The position numbers and the translations under genes are program-made. Positions 69 to 59,700 of a stretch of DNA of 64,000 nucleotides are shown here, piece by piece. The stretch comes from Lepisosteus oculatus (Eukaryota; Chordata; Actinopteri; Semionotiformes; Lepisosteidae). The notes beneath the pieces were generated by a model. That model did not search any database. It was not told the origin of the DNA and worked only from the letters and a program-made list of their open reading frames with translations. The DNA is taken from NCBI RefSeq assembly GCF_040954835.1, contig NC_090723.1:5652001-5716000 (forward strand). The letters run 5' to 3'. Positions within the stretch are counted from its first letter, which is position 1, and the number at the start of each line of letters is the position of its first letter.

Positions 69-21190
<21,122 letters not shown>

Positions 21191-29375: not shown

Positions 29376-36354
<6,979 letters not shown>

Positions 36355-36720
36355 CGTCGGGCCCGGCGGACAGGTTTACGGAAGGCACACGACGGGGGTG
36401 GTGGGGAGGGGGGGAGGCGACGCGGCGATCAAGCCATAGGGAAGCAGCGGCAGGTCTCACCGGGGCATCGCGTCCTCGGCCCCCGGGCAGGTTTTCGCGT
36501 TCGGCGGCAGCAGGGCAAACCTGGCAGAAACGTCACTGCATGCAACACGAGCAGTGCCAACACTGCCTAGCTCCAGCTCCAGCAGCGCTGCCGCGGCCGC
36601 TCTCCACTTCCTATGTCTGTGGGAATACACTCCCCCCGCGCCTCCGAGCTCCGAGTAGCACAGTTCCGGGCAGCCGCAAGCCCAAGGTGTCCTGGCGCCC
36701 TGTCGCCACTAGAGGGAGCC
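36355..36720 (-). promoter_or_regulatory. PGAP3: PGAP3 upstream CpG-rich promoter region
   Basis: The sequence upstream of the PGAP3 ATG (36354) is strongly GC- and CpG-rich, for example GGCGACGCGGCGATC and CGCTGCCGCGGCCGC, up to about 36.72 kb, where composition drops sharply. I saw no TATA box. This fits a housekeeping CpG-island promoter, as expected for a ubiquitous GPI-processing enzyme. Confidence 0.5.
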
Positions 36721-38909: not shown

Positions 38910-40011
38910 CTACTTTTTTCTGGCCTTGAGGAAGAAGATGCCCACCACATCATCCACACCCACGCACATGTCCGCGGGCAGGACGTAGGTGCAGAACTCC
39001 AGCACGGTGTAGCCACACTCCTCCAGGCTGGCGGTGACGAAGGCCTGGTCCACGGGCACCACGGGGATCCGCACGCCCGGCCCGCCCAGGTAGTAGCTCT
39101 CCTCCAGCGCCCCGATCATCACCAGGTGCCCCCCCGGCCGCAGGAGCGTGGAGACGTGGCGCAGCGCCTGGGTGAAGGCGGGCCGGTCCGGGCTCACGGC
39201 CTCCAGGCAGAAGGAGGAGACGAGGCAGTCCGCCGGGCCAGGCAGGGCACCGGGCAGCAGGGGGGCGGGACGGTGCACGTCAATGGGCAGGACGTCGGTC
39301 ACCACTGAGCGCAGGCGGGCAGCCTTCTCGTGCCACGCCTCCGGGCTGCGGGGGGGCGAACAGGGACACAGAATCATACAAGTGTCTGAACACACCCCTG
39401 ACCTGGCCTTGATCAATACCCCTCTGGCCATCACACGGAGGGAGATCTCAGCCCACCGACGGCCACACCTTGGGAATGAGGCCCCAGCGCCGTGCCCAGC
39501 GTGCCTCACCTGCGGCCCTCCAGCTGGCAGACGTGCCGCAGGTACGGGCTCCAGTCGAAGCTGCCCGGGTCGTCCCCCAACCACCGCCGCAGCGCGGCCC
39601 GGTTCTGCGGCAGGAAGTCGGTCAGAACCAGCTTCTCGAACACCTCGCAGCCGCTCAGGACCTGGTACAGCGTGGGGCCCGAGCCGACGTCCACCAGGGT
39701 GCCCCCGCAGATGTCACCTAGGCGGGCAGAGGAGGGGGTCAGAGCAAGAGAGGACGCTCACTCCGACAGATCCACCCAGGGAGACGCCCCCCACCCCCCC
39801 ACGCACACTCGGCCCCAGTGCCAGGCTCACCCGCAGTGAAGGCTCGGTGCAGGCAGCCCAGTTTCCAGGGAACGATGCTGTCCAGCCGGGAGAAGTCCGC
39901 TCGGGGAGGGGTGTAGTTGTACTGCAGGTAGGCAGCCGGCTCAAACGGCTGGTAGCACTGAGCCATGGCAGCCACCCCCGCCTCGATGCCAGCCTCTTCC
40001 CGCTTTTCCAT
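38910..40011 (-). CDS. PNMT: PNMT, phenylethanolamine N-methyltransferase
   Basis: PNMT transfers a methyl group from S-adenosylmethionine to noradrenaline, making adrenaline, in the cytosol of chromaffin-type cells. Exons are 39831-40011, 39510-39717 and 38910-39345, totalling 825 nt and 274 aa (human 282). There are three exons as in human, and exon 2 is also 208 nt. Conserved blocks are YQPFEPAAYLQYNYTPPR, the SAM-binding motif DVGSGPTLYQ, LTDFLPQNR, SFDWSPY, LPIDVH, CLEAVSPD, LLRPGGHLVMIGALEESYY and GVDDVVGIFF. This identifies the PNMT/NNMT/INMT family and, within it, PNMT. The ATG at 40011 was chosen because it lies downstream of the TATA box. A nearer in-frame Met is possible (MAQCYQPFEP, 15 codons on). 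Confidence 0.95.
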
Positions 40012-40256
40012 CCCTCCCGCTCGCTGGGCTGCGGATTAAATCCCGGGAGCGAGACCGTCTCGACTTCCCCCGCAGACGTAGCCGGTTTTAAGTCTCGCCG
40101 GGCCGAGAACAGAACAAGACAAGCGATCGAGACCACGTCCGCCGGCCTGCAAGCGCAGCTCTGCGTCTGCGAGGAAGCCGTGCCAGTCTGAGGGCACCCG
40201 AGTCTCAGCGCAGCAGAGCCGCTCTCAGTCTGTCCCTGGGTGTGAGCTGCCATCTG

Positions 40257-41204: not shown

Positions 41205-41640
41205 CACTGTGCTACACTGCACCATCACTGTGTTACACTGCACGATCACTGTGTTCATTGTGCTAAACTGCACCATCACTGTGTTACACTGCACCATCAC
41301 TGTGTTCACTGTGCTACACTGCACCATCACTGTGTTCACTGTGCTAAACTGCACCATCACTGTATTCGCTGTGCTACACTGCACAATCACTGTGTTACAC
41401 TGCAGGATCACTATGTTCACTGTGCTACACTGCACCATCACTGTGTTCCCTGTGCTACACTGCACAATCACTGTGTTCACTGTGCTACACTGCACCATCA
41501 CTGTGTTCGCTGGGCTACAGTACACAATCACTGTGCTACACTGCACCATCACTGTGTTCACTGTGCTACACTGCACAATCAGTGTGTTCACTGTGCTACA
41601 GTACACAATCACTGTGCTACAGTGTATCATGATTATTCTA
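41205..41640. repeat. About 30-bp/20-bp composite minisatellite upstream of PNMT
   Basis: It is built from ACTGTGCTACACTGCACCAT plus CACTGTGTTC, a 30-bp unit, with interspersed shorter units in which the TGTTCACTG part is missing. Point variants occur at CACCATC, CACAATC and CACGATC. Both strands stay open over the array, which is an artefact of repetition. Confidence 0.92.
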
Positions 41641-46550: not shown

Positions 46551-47602
46551 CTGGGCCTCCTGTGACATGGAGCGGCCCAGTGACCTGGGGGCCTTGGCGA
46601 AGTCCATCCTGACTGGCTGGGTGATGGGGGGCAGGTCCCTCTTGATGTCGCTGAGGGCCCTCTTGGTCGGACAGGCACCGTCGGAGAGGACGGCGGGGCG
46701 GGGCTCCTCCTCGTGGGGCGAGCCCCTGCCCAGGCGGGCGCCCAGCTCCGCGGGGGCGAACAGGGGCACGGGCAGGGTGTTCCGGTACGGCAGCTGGTAC
46801 TCGCGCACCCCCCCAGCCACAGTGCCCAGACGCAGCACGCCGGAGGGGCAGTGCTGGACCAGGGGACGGGCCTCCCACTGGCGGGTCAGAGACTCGCGCC
46901 GACACTCATCCACGGCGTGAAGAGACTGCCTGCAGGGGGGGGGTGGAGGAAGAGGACAAGAGTGAAGCAGACAATCAACCAGGCCAGGGCAGTTTTCAAG
47001 CACGGCTCACTCCTGTACAGAGGTGCACAAAATCCCGCAGACTATTGCCAGACGTCACCGTCTCCAGCCATCCGTCGCCATCAGGCCCTCCCAGCAGCAG
47101 CGATGGGCTGAGGCAGGCTGGTGTCTCTTCACTGTAACGCTGCTCAAAAGGCTGCTCTTAAGGTGGTCAGGTTCAGAAGCGGTTAACTTGCACCCATGTG
47201 TCCAGGACATTTCACAGAACCAGAGCACAGCAAACAGGCTGTTGGTGCCCACGACTGCGGTCCAGGTATGAAATATTTAATTATCTCACCATGGGGCAGG
47301 ACCGGAGAGCTGATCATGTAAAGCACACCAGGGAAGCACCAATTACTGTACAGAGGCACCAGTGGAAATTTGAATGAGAAAAGCCCGACGCCCAGTCTGA
47401 TCCCTCCCTATCGAAGCGTTCTGGAGTGCTCAGGGGTTGAACGCCTCTCTCACCTGTCCTGCGGCTGTGTGATGAGCCTCACGCTCTGCCAGTCTGCGCT
47501 GTAGCTCTCCCGGTCCGCCCGGTTCTCCTCCCGCACGCTGCAGCCCAGCTCGGCCCGCGCCAGGGTTCCTGCCCGCTTGACGAGCACCGTGCGCCCCTGC
47601 AT
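46542..47602 (-). CDS. TCAP: TCAP, telethonin (titin-cap)
   Basis: Telethonin is a small striated-muscle Z-disc protein that clamps two titin N-termini together. Exons 47454-47602 and 46542-46929 total 537 nt and 178 aa (human 167), a two-exon gene as in human. Exon 1 has CSVREENRADRESYSADW, matching the human N-terminal region. Exon 2 has SLHAVDECRRESLTRQWEA, VREYQLPYRNTLPVPLF and the C-terminal RSMSQEAQRG, which is identical to the human C-terminus that carries kinase target serines. The start at 47602 (MQGRTVL) leaves a longer N-terminus than human; an upstream in-frame extension exists but lies in the 5'UTR below the TATA box. Confidence 0.93.
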
Positions 47603-47797
47603 CCCGTCTGTCCGTCTGTCGTCTCTCTCTGGTTCCAGGACGCTCTCGATGTGCGGTCGGTCAGGCTCCTCGCGATGGTACCGCTCCCTTCTTCTGTGTT
47701 GCTGGGTGAGTAGCGCTGTAGCTGTAGCTGTAGCTGTAGTGGCAGCTGTCCTCTGATCTGCTCTGTCTCGGTCTCCCTCTCCGCCAGCCCAGCCCCG

Positions 47798-53785: not shown

Positions 53786-56700
53786 TCACTCCAGCGACTT
53801 GGACATGAACATGTCCTCGTCAATTTCTGCACTGCCCTCCTCCTCCACTAGCTCCTCCTCCTCGCCTGGCAGCAGGTGATTGGCCTTGGCCACAAGGATG
53901 GGTGTGGTCACCAACGGCTCCACCTCTGCCTCGTCCGGAAGCTCCTCCTCCTTGGGGTAGAATCGGCGGGCCTTGTCCACGAAATCCTCCGCCGCATCCA
54001 GGTAGATCAGGCGGTCCTGATGGAGGAGGAGGGACTGGATGGGATGAAGAGTTCGGATACTCCCTTTCTGTTTCTCTGCCTGCTCTCCCAGTCTGGCCCT
54101 CTCCTTACATCCTCCTCTTTTCCCAGATTTCTCTCCCCCCTTCCCTTCTCTCGCCCCCATTTCCTTCTGCTTTTCCTACTCTATCCTTACCTGGGGCCAC
54201 TGCTACCCCCTGTAATATCCTTGTTCCCCACCCACACCCCAATGATGGGCATGCCCCCCGTCAATGACCCCACCCCCCTACAGCTTCCCTCTCCACCCCC
54301 ACCCCCCGACCCCCCCTGCCCCTCCGAGCCTCACCAGCACGAAGAGGTAGCGCTCGGGTGGTGCCCCCTTGCTGTCGAAGATGGAAGTGTCCTGGTGCAG
54401 CGCCTGCAGCAGAGAGCGGGCGGTGGTGGCATAGCGCAGGTTGGCGTAGGTGGTACTGGAGGACACGGTGAGCAGAGACTCAGCCTCTGCCATGAACCCT
54501 GAGAGAGAGAGAGAGAGGAAATGGGCCAGTGGAGAGAGGGAGTGACGTCCGATTGCGTGGCGGGAGCGTAAGAAACACCCCAAACATCCAGGTCATTTTT
54601 AAACAGAAGAGACTGCAAAGGCGCTCCACGCAGAGTCTGCCCCCTGGAGAACTTCAGCTCCAGCAGTGAGTGCTTTTAGGAAGGAAAGTAGCTGTCACTT
54701 CGCTGCACGAAGAGTTGGGGGTGCGTGGTGCAGCTACCCAGCAACTACTCGATCACTGAAGACAACTCCCTGGGTGTCGTTCAAAAAAAGAAAAGAGCCG
54801 CATGAGATCTTTTAATCACCAAGCAACTAAGCAGTCAAACGATCGAGACGGGCGACAGGGACTCTTGTGTGCAGTGGTCAAGCAGACGGTGCTGTCTGCG
54901 GTTTCCAGACCTCACTCGTCCCCCTGCCCTTCACAGTGGATTCTGTCGGCGCCCTCCTCTTTCCCTCCCCCTTCGGGGACTCACCCAGGTTCTCCAAAAT
55001 CATCTTCCACTTCTCCCGCACGTCTCGGCGGACCTGCCGCATGGCGTGGATGTCCACGCTGAGCCGCCGGTACCCCTGAGAGGGAGGAGAGAGGGGCGCA
55101 GGGCCTCAGCACAGGAAGTCACAGGAAAGGCCGGAAACAAACAGGTGGACATTTAAAACCTCCTTCCTTACCTAATTAAGTAAAAACTCAGGTTGCTGCA
55201 GGAAGAGGTGTGAGTGGGGCCAGTAGGGGGCGCTCACCCTGTAGTCTGTGGGGGTCCTAATGCCCCAGTATAGTGACGGGGACACTAAACTGTAAAAAGA
55301 CGCCGTCCTTCGGATGAGACGTAAAACTGAGGTCCTGACTCTCTGTGGTCATTAAAAATCCCAGGGTGTTTCTCGAAAAGAGTAGGGGTGTAACCCCAGC
55401 GTCCTGGCCACATTTCCCCCCAGCCTTTACCAGTCACGGCCTCCTAATAATCCCCATCTCTGAACTGGCTTCATCACTCTGCTCTCCTCCCCACTGAGAG
55501 CTGGTGTGTGTAAGAGGACTGGAGCATCATCCAGGTGGGGCTGCACACTGGTGGTGGAGGGGATCCCCATTACCTGAAAAGTGCTTTGAGTGGAGTGTCC
55601 AGAAAAGTGTTTATATAAGTGTAAGCAATTATTATTAATTATTATTAATTGTCCCATTTGGGAATTTTGCTTTGCAGGGAGATACAGTAAAAGACAACAC
55701 AATACACAATACCTCTAACACAACATGAACCCATTTACTAATAAGAAACATCCGACCATTATCAGAAAGCTGTTTATTCCTGGATGGGGTCGAGGAAGCC
55801 CATTCCAGAAACGCAGGCTGCAAGGTGGGACTGGTTGGAATGCCAGTCCACTGCTGGTTGCACCCACAAAAATTCACTTATTAATATAGAAACAAGAGGC
55901 ACCAATTAGTGTGGGCTTAGTGTGCCATCTTGTGGCCATGTGTGATATCTGCACCTAGCCAACTGTCACCAATATTGCTATACTGATATACTGATATTGC
56001 TAAACTGATAGCTAATTACGGCTCATTAGCTTCCTTAATTAATATAAGACTCAAGCACAGTGACCCGACTTTTACAGTCGTAACCTTTCAAACTCAAAAC
56101 ACTGTTTACAGACCCTACAGTGTGCTGGGGTAGATGCTCTGGAAATGACCATTAGAATAAGGTAATAATGTAGGTTAATTAAATGATAATAAAGGCAGAT
56201 TGATTAACTGCCAGCTGATCACTGACGGACAGAGAACAATAATGCTCTTCAATCAGGGCAAAGTTCAGGGCAGCTATTCCTTAGATAAGCTTAGATAACA
56301 ATTCACCGTGGCTTAGATAACAATTCAGATACAGACAGGACCAGTAGATCAATGTTTGAAATGGCTTTGCATTCCATCATCACATTTCATACAGGGTATG
56401 TGCAAAGAAAAATGCGTTCTCCCCTGGTTCTCTCCCTCTGACCTCTAACCTCTGACCTGGGACCCCCGCCGTGTCTTGGCTCTCCTGTGCAGCAGGTTGT
56501 ACAGCTCGCGGTCGTCGTCTCTCTCTGTGTGTGACTTGTCGGCCGGCTCGCTCCACAGGTTGGTCTCCTCCGCCCTGCGCCTCTTGGCCTCGCGGTCGAA
56601 GTACTGCAGCGTCTCGCTGAGGACAGACACAGCGCCTTCACACACACACACAGACACTTCAGGGCGCGAGAGGCGGGCCGGGCCGGGGGGCCGATCGGTA

Positions 56701-56793
56701 CCTCAGAATGGGGCTCTTCTCTTCCGGCTCCTCTTCTCCGCAGCAGCAGCAGCAGCAGTACTGCGTGCAGAACCCTCGGAGTCCAGAGCCCAT
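53786..56793 (-). CDS. Melanoregulin-like protein (MREG paralogue)
   Basis: Exons 56702-56793, 56457-56616, 54985-55075, 54335-54498 and 53786-54016 total 738 nt and 245 aa (human MREG 214), all in phase, with a TGA stop. The N-terminus MGSGLRGFC...YCCCCCCGEEE has the cysteine cluster that is palmitoylated in MREG. It is followed by TNLWSEPADKSHTERDDDRE, LYNLL, SVDIHAMRQVRR, EKWKMILENLGFMAEAESLL and RYLFVLDRLIYLDAAEDF, each aligning with human MREG (NLWSMPHDVSHTEADDDRTL, DIHTLRQVRRE, RYLFVVDRLIALDAAEEF). MREG promotes centripetal organelle and melanosome transport through RILP and dynactin. The C-terminal 60 or so residues are acidic (PGEEEELVEEEG) and unlike MREG. Being beside TCAP and ERBB2 suggests an ohnologue rather than MREG itself. 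Confidence 0.88.
55205..55650 (+). repeat. LINE L2-type 3' end/related SINE (MREG-like intron 2)
   Basis: It contains landmarks CCGTCCTTCGGATGAGACGT, GTGGTCATTAAAAATCCCAG, GAGTAGGGGTGTAACCCCAG, GTGCTTTGAGTGGAGTGTCC and a TAAGTGTAAGCAATTATTAT tail. This is the standard fish L2-clade 3' region, inserted antisense to the gene and 5'-truncated. Confidence 0.82.
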
Positions 56794-59700
56794 CGCTGCA
56801 CCAGGGGGAGGCTGACCGGGTCAGAACCTGGTGCCACGCAGGGAGCACGCTTCGACGAAGCCCGGGATTTGGAGTCCTGGACGGTAGTTCTGATGGCACC
56901 CCGACTGGAGTTGTTCTGGAGAGCCGGGAGTCTGACACTGGTCTACTGGAGAGTTCGCAGGTCCGTGAGGAGTGGGCCTGCTGGTAACAGACCAGGGCTG
57001 AGCTGGGAATGTAGACTGGCGTGGCAGAGCAGACCTCTCTGTGCACCGGTGTTGACAGGGGAGTCCAAACTGCGGTTCACTAGATCAATACCACTGGATC
57101 GGTTCTGGAGATCCGACTGAAACAGAGGAGAGCGACATGAACAGAATTTCTTCCCAGGGCTGTAAAGTTGCCAGCTGGGTTCAATGTAGTGGTCTGAATG
57201 CTCGCTATCTGCGGAGGTTATGCTAGTTCAAAAGTGAAGCTGCTTCCCATCCAGACTGGAGATTAACTGGTACCAGACCCCTCAGGCTTACTGGAGATAA
57301 CCTGAAGAACTGCAGGAGTTGTACCGGGGCGACTGTGCTGTCGTCTTGGCCACTCGGGTGGCACTATCTTTTGGCCCGATGGTGACCCACTAACCCAGCA
57401 ATGACCCCAGAATCCCCCTGCTCACAGGCTGCAGAACCACCGGAGCTGAACCGGAGCTGTTCTAGTCCAGCACTACAAAATAACAAGAGATCTACTGCTG
57501 CAGACCTGCACCTCTGTCAGATAAATCCTGGTCCAGCACCAGAGTGACAGAAAAAGTATTTGGGTCCACAAAACAAGATGAATTAACTAGTAAATTGATC
57601 TCCCACCTCCAGACTCTATCCCGGGACTGACCTCTGAAGACTGGTTCTGATCCCAAACTGCAGATGGGACAAACAGCCTGATCTCTTTTCTCAGGGCTGG
57701 AATGAAAGCATCCTGCTGCACAGATTCAGATCCTTGGGATACACATGCAGCTGAATACCAGGGAGGTCCTGATCCGATGGGGAGACCCGATGGTTCTGGT
57801 CCAGAAGTGAGGAGGCTGTGAAAAAAAGACTACTGTGATCCCTCTGACTGTGTGAGCCGGTCCCAGAGACTCTCTCCCGTCACTGTAGATTTAACAGCAG
57901 ATCAGACTGCTGCCTGCATCCCAGCCCACTACTTGTGTTACAGTGAAGCAGCGCTACACACGCTCAAACTGAGAAAATGACCCGCACACACAGCGCCAGA
58001 GACACACGGTTTTTAGAGAAAACTGAAATAAACTCACTGCAATCAGGGAGTCACAGTGCAGTCATGTGCAGCCCCTTTCTCTGCCCCTGGCACCCACTGG
58101 CTGACAGTGTGAGGGTACCGCGGTCTCGGCTCCCCGTATCCCCTCCGCCCACTGCCCCGGGGACAGCACTGTAGACAGACGCTGCACACAGCCAGAGTTC
58201 AGGCCAACAAACCTGAACGAACTCCAACATGAACACCTTCTACCTCCTAAAAAACAGCAACCATGATAGCCCTTCTGTCTGTCAGTGTATCGTCATTCTG
58301 AACAATTATTAAAAGTTTTTTGAGAACATTTACATTGTAAAACCTGAGAAGTACCAGGGGGGTGGGGTTGGTATTTCAGTGTTGCTCAGGCTTCACAGCA
58401 CCGGCCATCAGCTGCCTTCACTGCAACAACCACCTGGGATGATCAGAAAAGAAACAACTCACACTCACGGGCACACAGCTTAGCTGAGGGAGTGGGTAAA
58501 GGAAGGAGACCCAAGGGAACAAGGGGCAAATTCAGCCCCCCCCCCCCCACCTCTCAGCCTGCTCACCGAGCTCTCCAAAGGCAGCCTTTGATCTCTTGAG
58601 CTGCAGACTTCCAGCCTGGGTCACATGAAACAGGCCTGGGCTCAGCCCCTTGCTCCCAGCCCACACAGGAGACGTTCCTCCGGGTGCGAACAGCCGGCAC
58701 ACACGTGCTCTTCTGGACCCCAGTCCTGCTCGACAGATGTTCAGACGCAGCAGGTCACCTGCTACGAAGCACTCCCTCTCGTCTGGTCAGGAGAAAGGCT
58801 CTTGGTAAGAGTGCACCTGGGCTAACAGAGATTCATGACCTAGTAGAGTAGCCCAATATTTACAGCACAAGCCCTCAGAGCTGTTTCAACACACATTCCC
58901 TCAGTGACTGGTGCACACAGTCCTTGGGGTTTGTGGCATCCTCTACCTTTCAGTCCAGCTTGAAATGGCCTAATTGAAGCAGCTTTTTGCATAAGAAATT
59001 GGATCATTTGTTGTTTATAGCTCTTGCTCAGTTGCTCATTAACAAAGCACCCGTAAGACTTGCAGGCCCTCCTGGAGTGGAGGAACCCAGCCCTGACACA
59101 GTCGCCCTTGCTGTCACCCTCGTCACTGACCGCTCACCACCAGCGCCACAAGCACACAGGCCGGACACCTGACTGCGGACAACACATCCATTGCTAACCT
59201 GCTCTCTCCGTTTTTTTTTCTGAAATGGGAAAAAGCCTTGCAAACTGTTAAAAGCTACAAAGCTGAGAGGCCCATTGAGATCACACCCGTACAGACGGAA
59301 CAGCTGAACGATCACAAGATCTGCGCCAACCGCCAAGGGGCTCAGGGCCCGAGACAGCCAGCTCCTGCACCCAGCGGAGGGGAGCGGGGGGGGGGGGGGG
59401 GGTTAGGACGCAGGGAATGAGGAAGAGGATGAAGGCACAGAGTGGAGAAGAAGTGTGGAAGAAATGTAGAGTGTGGAGTGGGGAGATGGGGAGAGAGCAG
59501 GGCGAGGACAGCTATGAAGGAGCTGAAAGCAATTCATGCAGGGGGGAAACCGGAGAAATGCAGAGCAGCAAAGCATGGCTGCTGTATCATGTAGTATTGC
59601 CTCGCTATGATACAGTATACCGATAGACTGAGGACACAGATTCTGGGCTGGGCTGCTGTAATGCTCAGAGCTAGGCCCTGCATGCTTGAGGGACAACCCT

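Follow-up and report, generated by a model that had tools for sequence, protein, structure and literature searches.

We identified a gene of the melanoregulin family within the ERBB2 cluster of Lepisosteus oculatus, on the minus strand at positions 53786-56793 of a 64,000-nucleotide stretch of contig NC_090723.1 (5,652,001 to 5,716,000 of the forward strand). This whole stretch is called the window here and its contig C31. Melanoregulin (MREG), also named mouse dilute suppressor, belongs to the family PF15812. The window gene is likely to be the HOXB/ERBB2-side MREG paralogue from the ancient vertebrate whole-genome duplications, and the second MREG gene of this genome, on the HOXD/ERBB4-bearing contig C12, to be MREG proper. 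This reading includes the mechanism known for the family, so that the window protein would be a palmitoylated, dynein-recruiting adaptor whose acidic tail is particular to it. We infer an ohnologue origin by whole-genome duplication, which is supported because the two copies sit on the HOX/ERBB paralogous contigs C31 and C12.

The window gene runs from an ATG at 56793 to a TGA ending at 53786, and its five exons (92, 160, 91, 164 and 231 nt), when joined, are in phase and encode a protein of 245 residues, with zero internal stops. All four introns, of 85, 1381, 486 and 318 bases, are bounded by GT-AG, with phases 2-0-1-0. Exon 1 (56702..56793) holds the start codon and an N-terminus including a run of six cysteines (MGSGLRGFCTQYCCCCCCGEEE...), and ends in phase 2 at the donor GTACCG; the cysteine-rich N-terminus, read from the sequence, is MGSGLRGFCTQYCCCCCC. 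The MREG core begins in exon 2 (56457..56616; NLWSEPADKSHTERDDDRELYNLL), which has an AG acceptor and a GTCAGA donor and matched PF15812 positions 1-42 with E 1.3e-13 in the search of the fish's own genome. It continues through exon 3 (54985..55075; YRRLSVDIHAMRQVRRDVREKWKMILENLG; positions 39-74, E 3.6e-11) and exon 4 (54335..54498; FMAEAESLLTV...PPERYLFVL; positions 73-130, E 6.2e-17) and ends in exon 5 (53786..54016; DRLIYLDAAEDFVDKARRFYPK), which also encodes a 54-residue acidic tail (19 of the 54 residues are D or E, two are K or R) and the stop codon. The initial annotation, made from the letters of the window alone, had claimed five in-phase exons with the whole MREG core; its coordinates proved exact, the strand being minus, and the joined protein matched 149/149 positions of the PF15812 profile (E 3.7e-76, 255 bits with a cut-off of 27). 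With a threshold of E 1, melanoregulin 6cmy (E 1.8e-41, 146 bits), which we take to be the mammalian protein, was the single sequence matched among solved structures. The window protein resembles it in having the whole core profile together with a cysteine-rich N-terminus. The window gene is an intact protein-coding member of the melanoregulin family, and the family match is far beyond chance. Chance open frames were rejected as a reading of the gene, and a processed retrocopy was ruled out by the four retained GT-AG introns.

A CpG-rich, putatively promoter-like stretch without assigned strand spans exon 1 (56250..57250), with GC of 0.56-0.64 and CpG observed/expected of 0.56-0.74 in the 500-base windows at 56250, 56500 and 56750. 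AATAAA was sought at 51.5-53.8 kb and none was found there, with just two ATTAAA (52256, 52091), so that a clear polyadenylation signal near the stop is missing. Intron 2 contains, by eye, a fish repeat of the short interspersed element type at about 55230-55650 (ccttcggatgagacgtaaaactgaggtcctgactctctgtggtcattaaaaatcccagg), and peptide frames resembling it also occur at C31:5.6305-5.6311 Mb and C12:36.4312-36.4315 Mb.

Searching PF15812 over the whole genome (1.2 Gb, 813 contigs, nine candidates scored) revealed six matching exons at two loci, three at each: the window on C31 and C12:36.378-36.383 Mb. The C12 MREG gene, at 36376223-36384182, consists of five exons with GT-AG introns and encodes 189 residues (PF15812 E 2.1e-72). 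Both copies carry four introns with identical phases 2-0-1-0, and exons 3 and 4 measure 91 and 164 nt in each. The two proteins are identical at 77/185 positions without gaps (42%), and against 6cmy the C12 protein scores higher than the window protein (196 and 146 bits, respectively). After the core, 54 residues follow in the window protein and three in the C12 protein (exon 5, 36384105-36384182, past the conserved YPK). The solved 6cmy, of 182 residues, was matched only to residue 161, hence the C-terminus differs among the three proteins. The window gene is thus set apart from known MREG by its six-cysteine run, its 54-residue acidic tail and its location on a HOXB/ERBB2 instead of a HOXD/ERBB4 contig. 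Beside the C12 gene, at 36.391-36.417 Mb, we observed AIG1/GIMAP-type GTPases, one of which was checked (AIG1, E 2.7e-41), and, by eye, rhodopsin-type receptors with a single exon each. About 40 kb above it, an intronless 350-residue frame on the minus strand (C12:36.4247-36.4257 Mb) contains a HIT domain (E 8e-7) and, by eye, a second HIT-like half.

The contigs of the two copies were characterized by their HOX, ERBB and IGFBP content. Of five candidates in a genome search with Hox9 (PF04617), four matched, and C12, C1, C10 and C31 each carry one of them; by sequence signature, we take their first exons to be HOXD9 (C12, 17.41 Mb), HOXC9, HOXA9 and HOXB9, respectively. The Furin-like domain PF00757 was dropped as an ERBB marker after just three matches (C32, C5 and C1); the ERBB2 kinase exons were used as the query because the Furin-like domain is cut by introns and marks ERBB genes poorly. 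With 150 of the 244 candidates scored, at E up to 1e-10, the kinase query returned at least 15 matches. Among those listed, two each on C31, C6 and C12 ranked on top, followed by C13 (42% identity), C1 (57% over 58 residues) and weaker kinases. For their assignment against solved chains we set aside 9p9u, an EGFR-labelled entry that was matched twice and topped all three lists. Compared per single domain, the kinase exons in the window scored 218 bits with erbB-2 and 200 bits with EGFR; the C12 kinase (8.88-8.91 Mb) scored 238 bits with erbB-4 and 196 bits with EGFR and is assigned to ERBB4, and the C6 kinase matched EGFR best (236 bits). The kinase place on C1 has a Furin-like exon 7 kb away, and the two presumably belong to an ERBB3-type gene. 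The presence of one Hox9 gene in each cluster, and of one gene of every ERBB type among the matches listed, suggests a non-teleost genome. IGFBP (PF00219) matched 25 times on 14 contigs, including opposed pairs on C12 (42 kb apart) and, with EGFR, on C6 (29 kb), as well as once at C31 9.80 Mb. By arrangement, the C12 pair looks like IGFBP2/5, the C6 pair like IGFBP1/3 and the C31 hit like IGFBP4, the other 20 being left unnamed.

In the HOX/ERBB paralogon, C31, with ERBB2 and HOXB9, therefore seems to be the member of the 17q type and C12, with ERBB4 and HOXD9, that of the 2q type, the HOX names being putative. The ancient duplication proposed in the initial annotation gains support from this arrangement, and a separate MREG gene on the ERBB4-bearing chromosome, predicted there beforehand, was indeed present (MREG at C12:36.38 Mb, ERBB4 at C12:8.88-8.91 Mb). 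As C12 makes up 39.9 of 1200 Mb (3.3%), a second copy placed at random would land on it about 3% of the time. The HOX/ERBB paralogon is described in the accessible portions of PMC2235844 and PMC2622764, and tables of the former pair ERBB2/IGFBP4 (17q) with ERBB4/IGFBP2/IGFBP5 (2q) as corresponding blocks. Compared with the HOX-linked families included there (ERBB2/ERBB4 and IGFBP4/IGFBP2-5; ZNFN1A, that is IKZF, is also listed), MREG occupies the same paralogous chromosome pair as ERBB and, by arrangement, as IGFBP, and is represented by the two copies found in this genome.

The age of the duplication was addressed by comparing the core columns of the window protein, the C12 protein and 6cmy, an unrooted set of three sequences with no outgroup. 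The C12 protein and 6cmy were identical in 90/154 columns, the window protein and 6cmy in 76/156, and the window and C12 proteins in 71/154. Of 154 columns, 63 were common to all three sequences and 44 differed in all; among the two-way columns, 27 were shared by C12 and 6cmy only, 12 by the window protein and 6cmy only and eight by the window and C12 proteins only. In column bootstraps C12 and 6cmy formed the closest pair in 99%, and in 78% 6cmy was nearer to the window protein than C12 was. A recent duplicate would be expected to leave many columns shared by the window and C12 proteins only, and since these were the fewest, a recent origin is not borne out. The site pattern is consistent with a duplication preceding the fish-tetrapod split but, with three sequences and no outgroup, does not prove it.

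The initial annotation had named a recent lineage-specific duplicate as the outcome that would contradict an ancient origin. We consider such a copy, arisen from MREG within this fish lineage, quickly diverged and located near ERBB2 by chance, to be very improbable. It would fit with the window copy being farther from 6cmy than the C12 copy is and with zero immediate neighbours common to both, but the copies are only 42% identical, the columns shared exclusively by them (8) do not exceed those shared exclusively by the window protein and 6cmy (12), in what is a weak test with three sequences and no outgroup, and the location agrees with the prediction of HOXB/ERBB2 versus HOXD/ERBB4 contigs. 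That same agreement, in that each copy lies on a contig bearing HOX and ERBB genes as predicted, makes it unlikely that MREG was copied by an ancient small-scale event, whether in tandem or with translocation, at about the time of the genome doublings or earlier. In favour of the latter, the search recovered just two copies where up to four would be expected, their neighbours are not shared, and separate block duplications of HOX-linked families are argued for in the available part of PMC2235844. That the window copy is decaying or unexpressed seems scarcely credible: AATAAA was missing within 2.3 kb past the stop, as a pseudogene might have it, but splice sites and frame are intact across 245 codons, the core matches every profile position, and the four introns show that the gene is not a retrocopy.

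Several observations weigh against an origin of the pair by whole-genome duplication. In the three-sequence comparison without an outgroup, the window protein lies nearer to 6cmy than to C12 in just 78% of bootstraps, and a long branch leading to the window protein would likewise raise the number of columns common to C12 and 6cmy (27) and make C12 seem the closer copy. IGFBP-domain matches are common in this genome, and consequently the lone match on C31 is weak evidence. On C12, the distance from MREG is 27 Mb to ERBB4 and 19 Mb to HOXD9. Furthermore, in a tblastn search with nine pieces of ERBB2, PGAP3, PNMT, TCAP, STARD3, FKBP10 and P3H4, zero matches at E 0.01 were found in C12:36.30-36.44 Mb; as controls, all neighbour pieces recovered themselves on C31, and the MREG-like query recovered three of four core exons on C12. 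We used tblastn in place of a codon-score exon finder (140 kb), which detected four of five exons of the window gene but one of five of the C12 gene, so that its silence says little. Missing shared neighbours are common after old duplications; their absence weakens the ohnologue claim and excludes nothing. The synteny support is chromosome-scale, not gene-by-gene. In the accessible text of PMC2235844, HOX-linked families are argued to have arisen in separate co-duplicated groups, not all in two whole-genome duplications, and according to that of PMC2622764 rearrangements are required to reconcile the gene trees. Were the former view true, the MREG pair would still be an old block duplicate, but the term "whole-genome" would be wrong.

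With regard to function, the available part of PMC9586991 describes mammalian Mreg as residing on melanosomes via palmitoylation and recruiting dynein-dynactin through RILP, its loss causing melanosomes to disperse from around the nucleus. Palmitoylation of mammalian MREG also appears in the consulted portion of PMC12838948, and a cysteine-rich N-terminus suggestive of membrane anchoring in that of PMC3439427. Two elements of this mode of action are kept in the window protein, the N-terminal cysteine run and the conserved core, with its 63 columns common to all three sequences. By analogy with the family, the cysteine run would be palmitoylated and anchor the protein to the membrane of a lysosome-related organelle, pigment granules or others. 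The core would recruit the RILP-dynactin-dynein motor, so that the organelle travels inward along microtubules, and the acidic tail, missing in the C12 copy, may confer a partner, an organelle or a regulation of its own. The window protein would probably serve lysosome-related organelles as an adaptor that is palmitoylated and recruits dynein, the tail being its distinct part. A more far-reaching proposal, which we put forward tentatively and with some doubt, is that a functional second melanoregulin was kept in the fish ERBB2 cluster since the early-vertebrate doublings and lost toward mammals, and that its tail makes it a cargo adaptor for a lysosome-related organelle or motor partner other than that of MREG, possibly aiding the fast two-way movement of granules in the pigment cells of fish.

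The surroundings of the window gene agree with the claim of the initial annotation that it sits in the ERBB2-PGAP3-PNMT-TCAP cluster. With rising coordinates, the gene order on C31 is FKBP10-type, P3H4-type, ERBB2, PGAP3, PNMT, TCAP, the MREG-like gene and STARD3, and every gene from ERBB2 through STARD3 is on the minus strand. ERBB2 is represented by exon-like segments at approximately 666..11679, with further exons below the low end of the window; they match the Pfam tyrosine kinase domain and, as best single-domain PDB match, erbB-2. Reading frames of PGAP3 extend over approximately 30117..36375 (outer ends by eye), and their joined exon pieces match Pfam Per1 with E 1.4e-43. PNMT is found at 38913..40029 (piece 38913-39350, Pfam NNMT_PNMT_TEMT, E 3e-31) and TCAP at approximately 46551..47686 (piece 46551-46916, Pfam Telethonin, E 1.5e-56; upper segment by eye only). 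Beyond the window, STARD3 matches Pfam MENTAL with 43 bits, and its START piece, with 21.2 bits, falls slightly below the cut-off of 22. The MREG-like gene thus occupies the slot between TCAP and STARD3. The human 17q12 order is STARD3-TCAP-PNMT-PGAP3-ERBB2, relative to which C31 has this one additional gene. On the far side of ERBB2, below the window at C31:5.624-5.645 Mb, lie the FKBP10-type gene (minus strand; Pfam FKBP_C) and the P3H4-type gene (plus strand; Pfam TPR_leprecan), where the human counterpart is MIEN1-GRB7-IKZF3. Relative to that order, the ERBB2 block seems to be rearranged on its P3H4/FKBP10 side. The window also harbours minisatellites at 9590-10537, amid the ERBB2 exons (40-base unit, 23.6 copies), at 32660-34034 (a different 40-base unit, 34.4 copies) and at 34758-35032 (16-base unit, 17.2 copies), and a compound 30/81/111-base array at 41225-41621. 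Beside the ERBB2 exons, on the plus strand at 11791-12027, there is a reverse-transcriptase-like open frame, by eye a fragment of a long interspersed element; this short piece gave no Pfam match at E 0.001.

Among the matches listed in a literature search of partial coverage (titles and abstract starts), no description of an ERBB2-linked MREG copy or ohnologue was found. Public genome annotation may already label such genes "melanoregulin-like". In the accessible texts of the two paralogon papers MREG is not named ("melanoregulin" and "mreg" occur 0 times in PMC2235844, "mreg" 0 times in PMC2622764), and literature on sturgeon, zebrafish, sole, Nothobranchius and carp, as far as its available parts go, names melanoregulin without distinguishing two genes. 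A lake trout quantitative trait locus for spots and vermiculation on Sna3 includes a "melanoregulin-like" gene, according to the portion of PMC7263693 consulted. It parallels the window gene in that a fish is credited with a second gene of MREG-type name, and it may be either the ERBB2-linked ohnologue or a later MREG duplicate. The accessible part of PMC3623868 notes for cichlids that one MREG copy showed a response to colour change and that it might have diverged from the paralogous copy. The available text of PMC3439427 calls MREG specific to vertebrates and says that it has no homology to other proteins. A retained ohnologue would give MREG a relative, in which residues common to both would point to the shared mechanism and differences, such as the tail and the cysteine run, to what diverged. 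The HOX/ERBB paralogon furthermore gains the window gene as a candidate member. For work on fish pigmentation, "mreg" and "melanoregulin-like" may thus be genes that have been separate since early vertebrates and not teleost duplicates.

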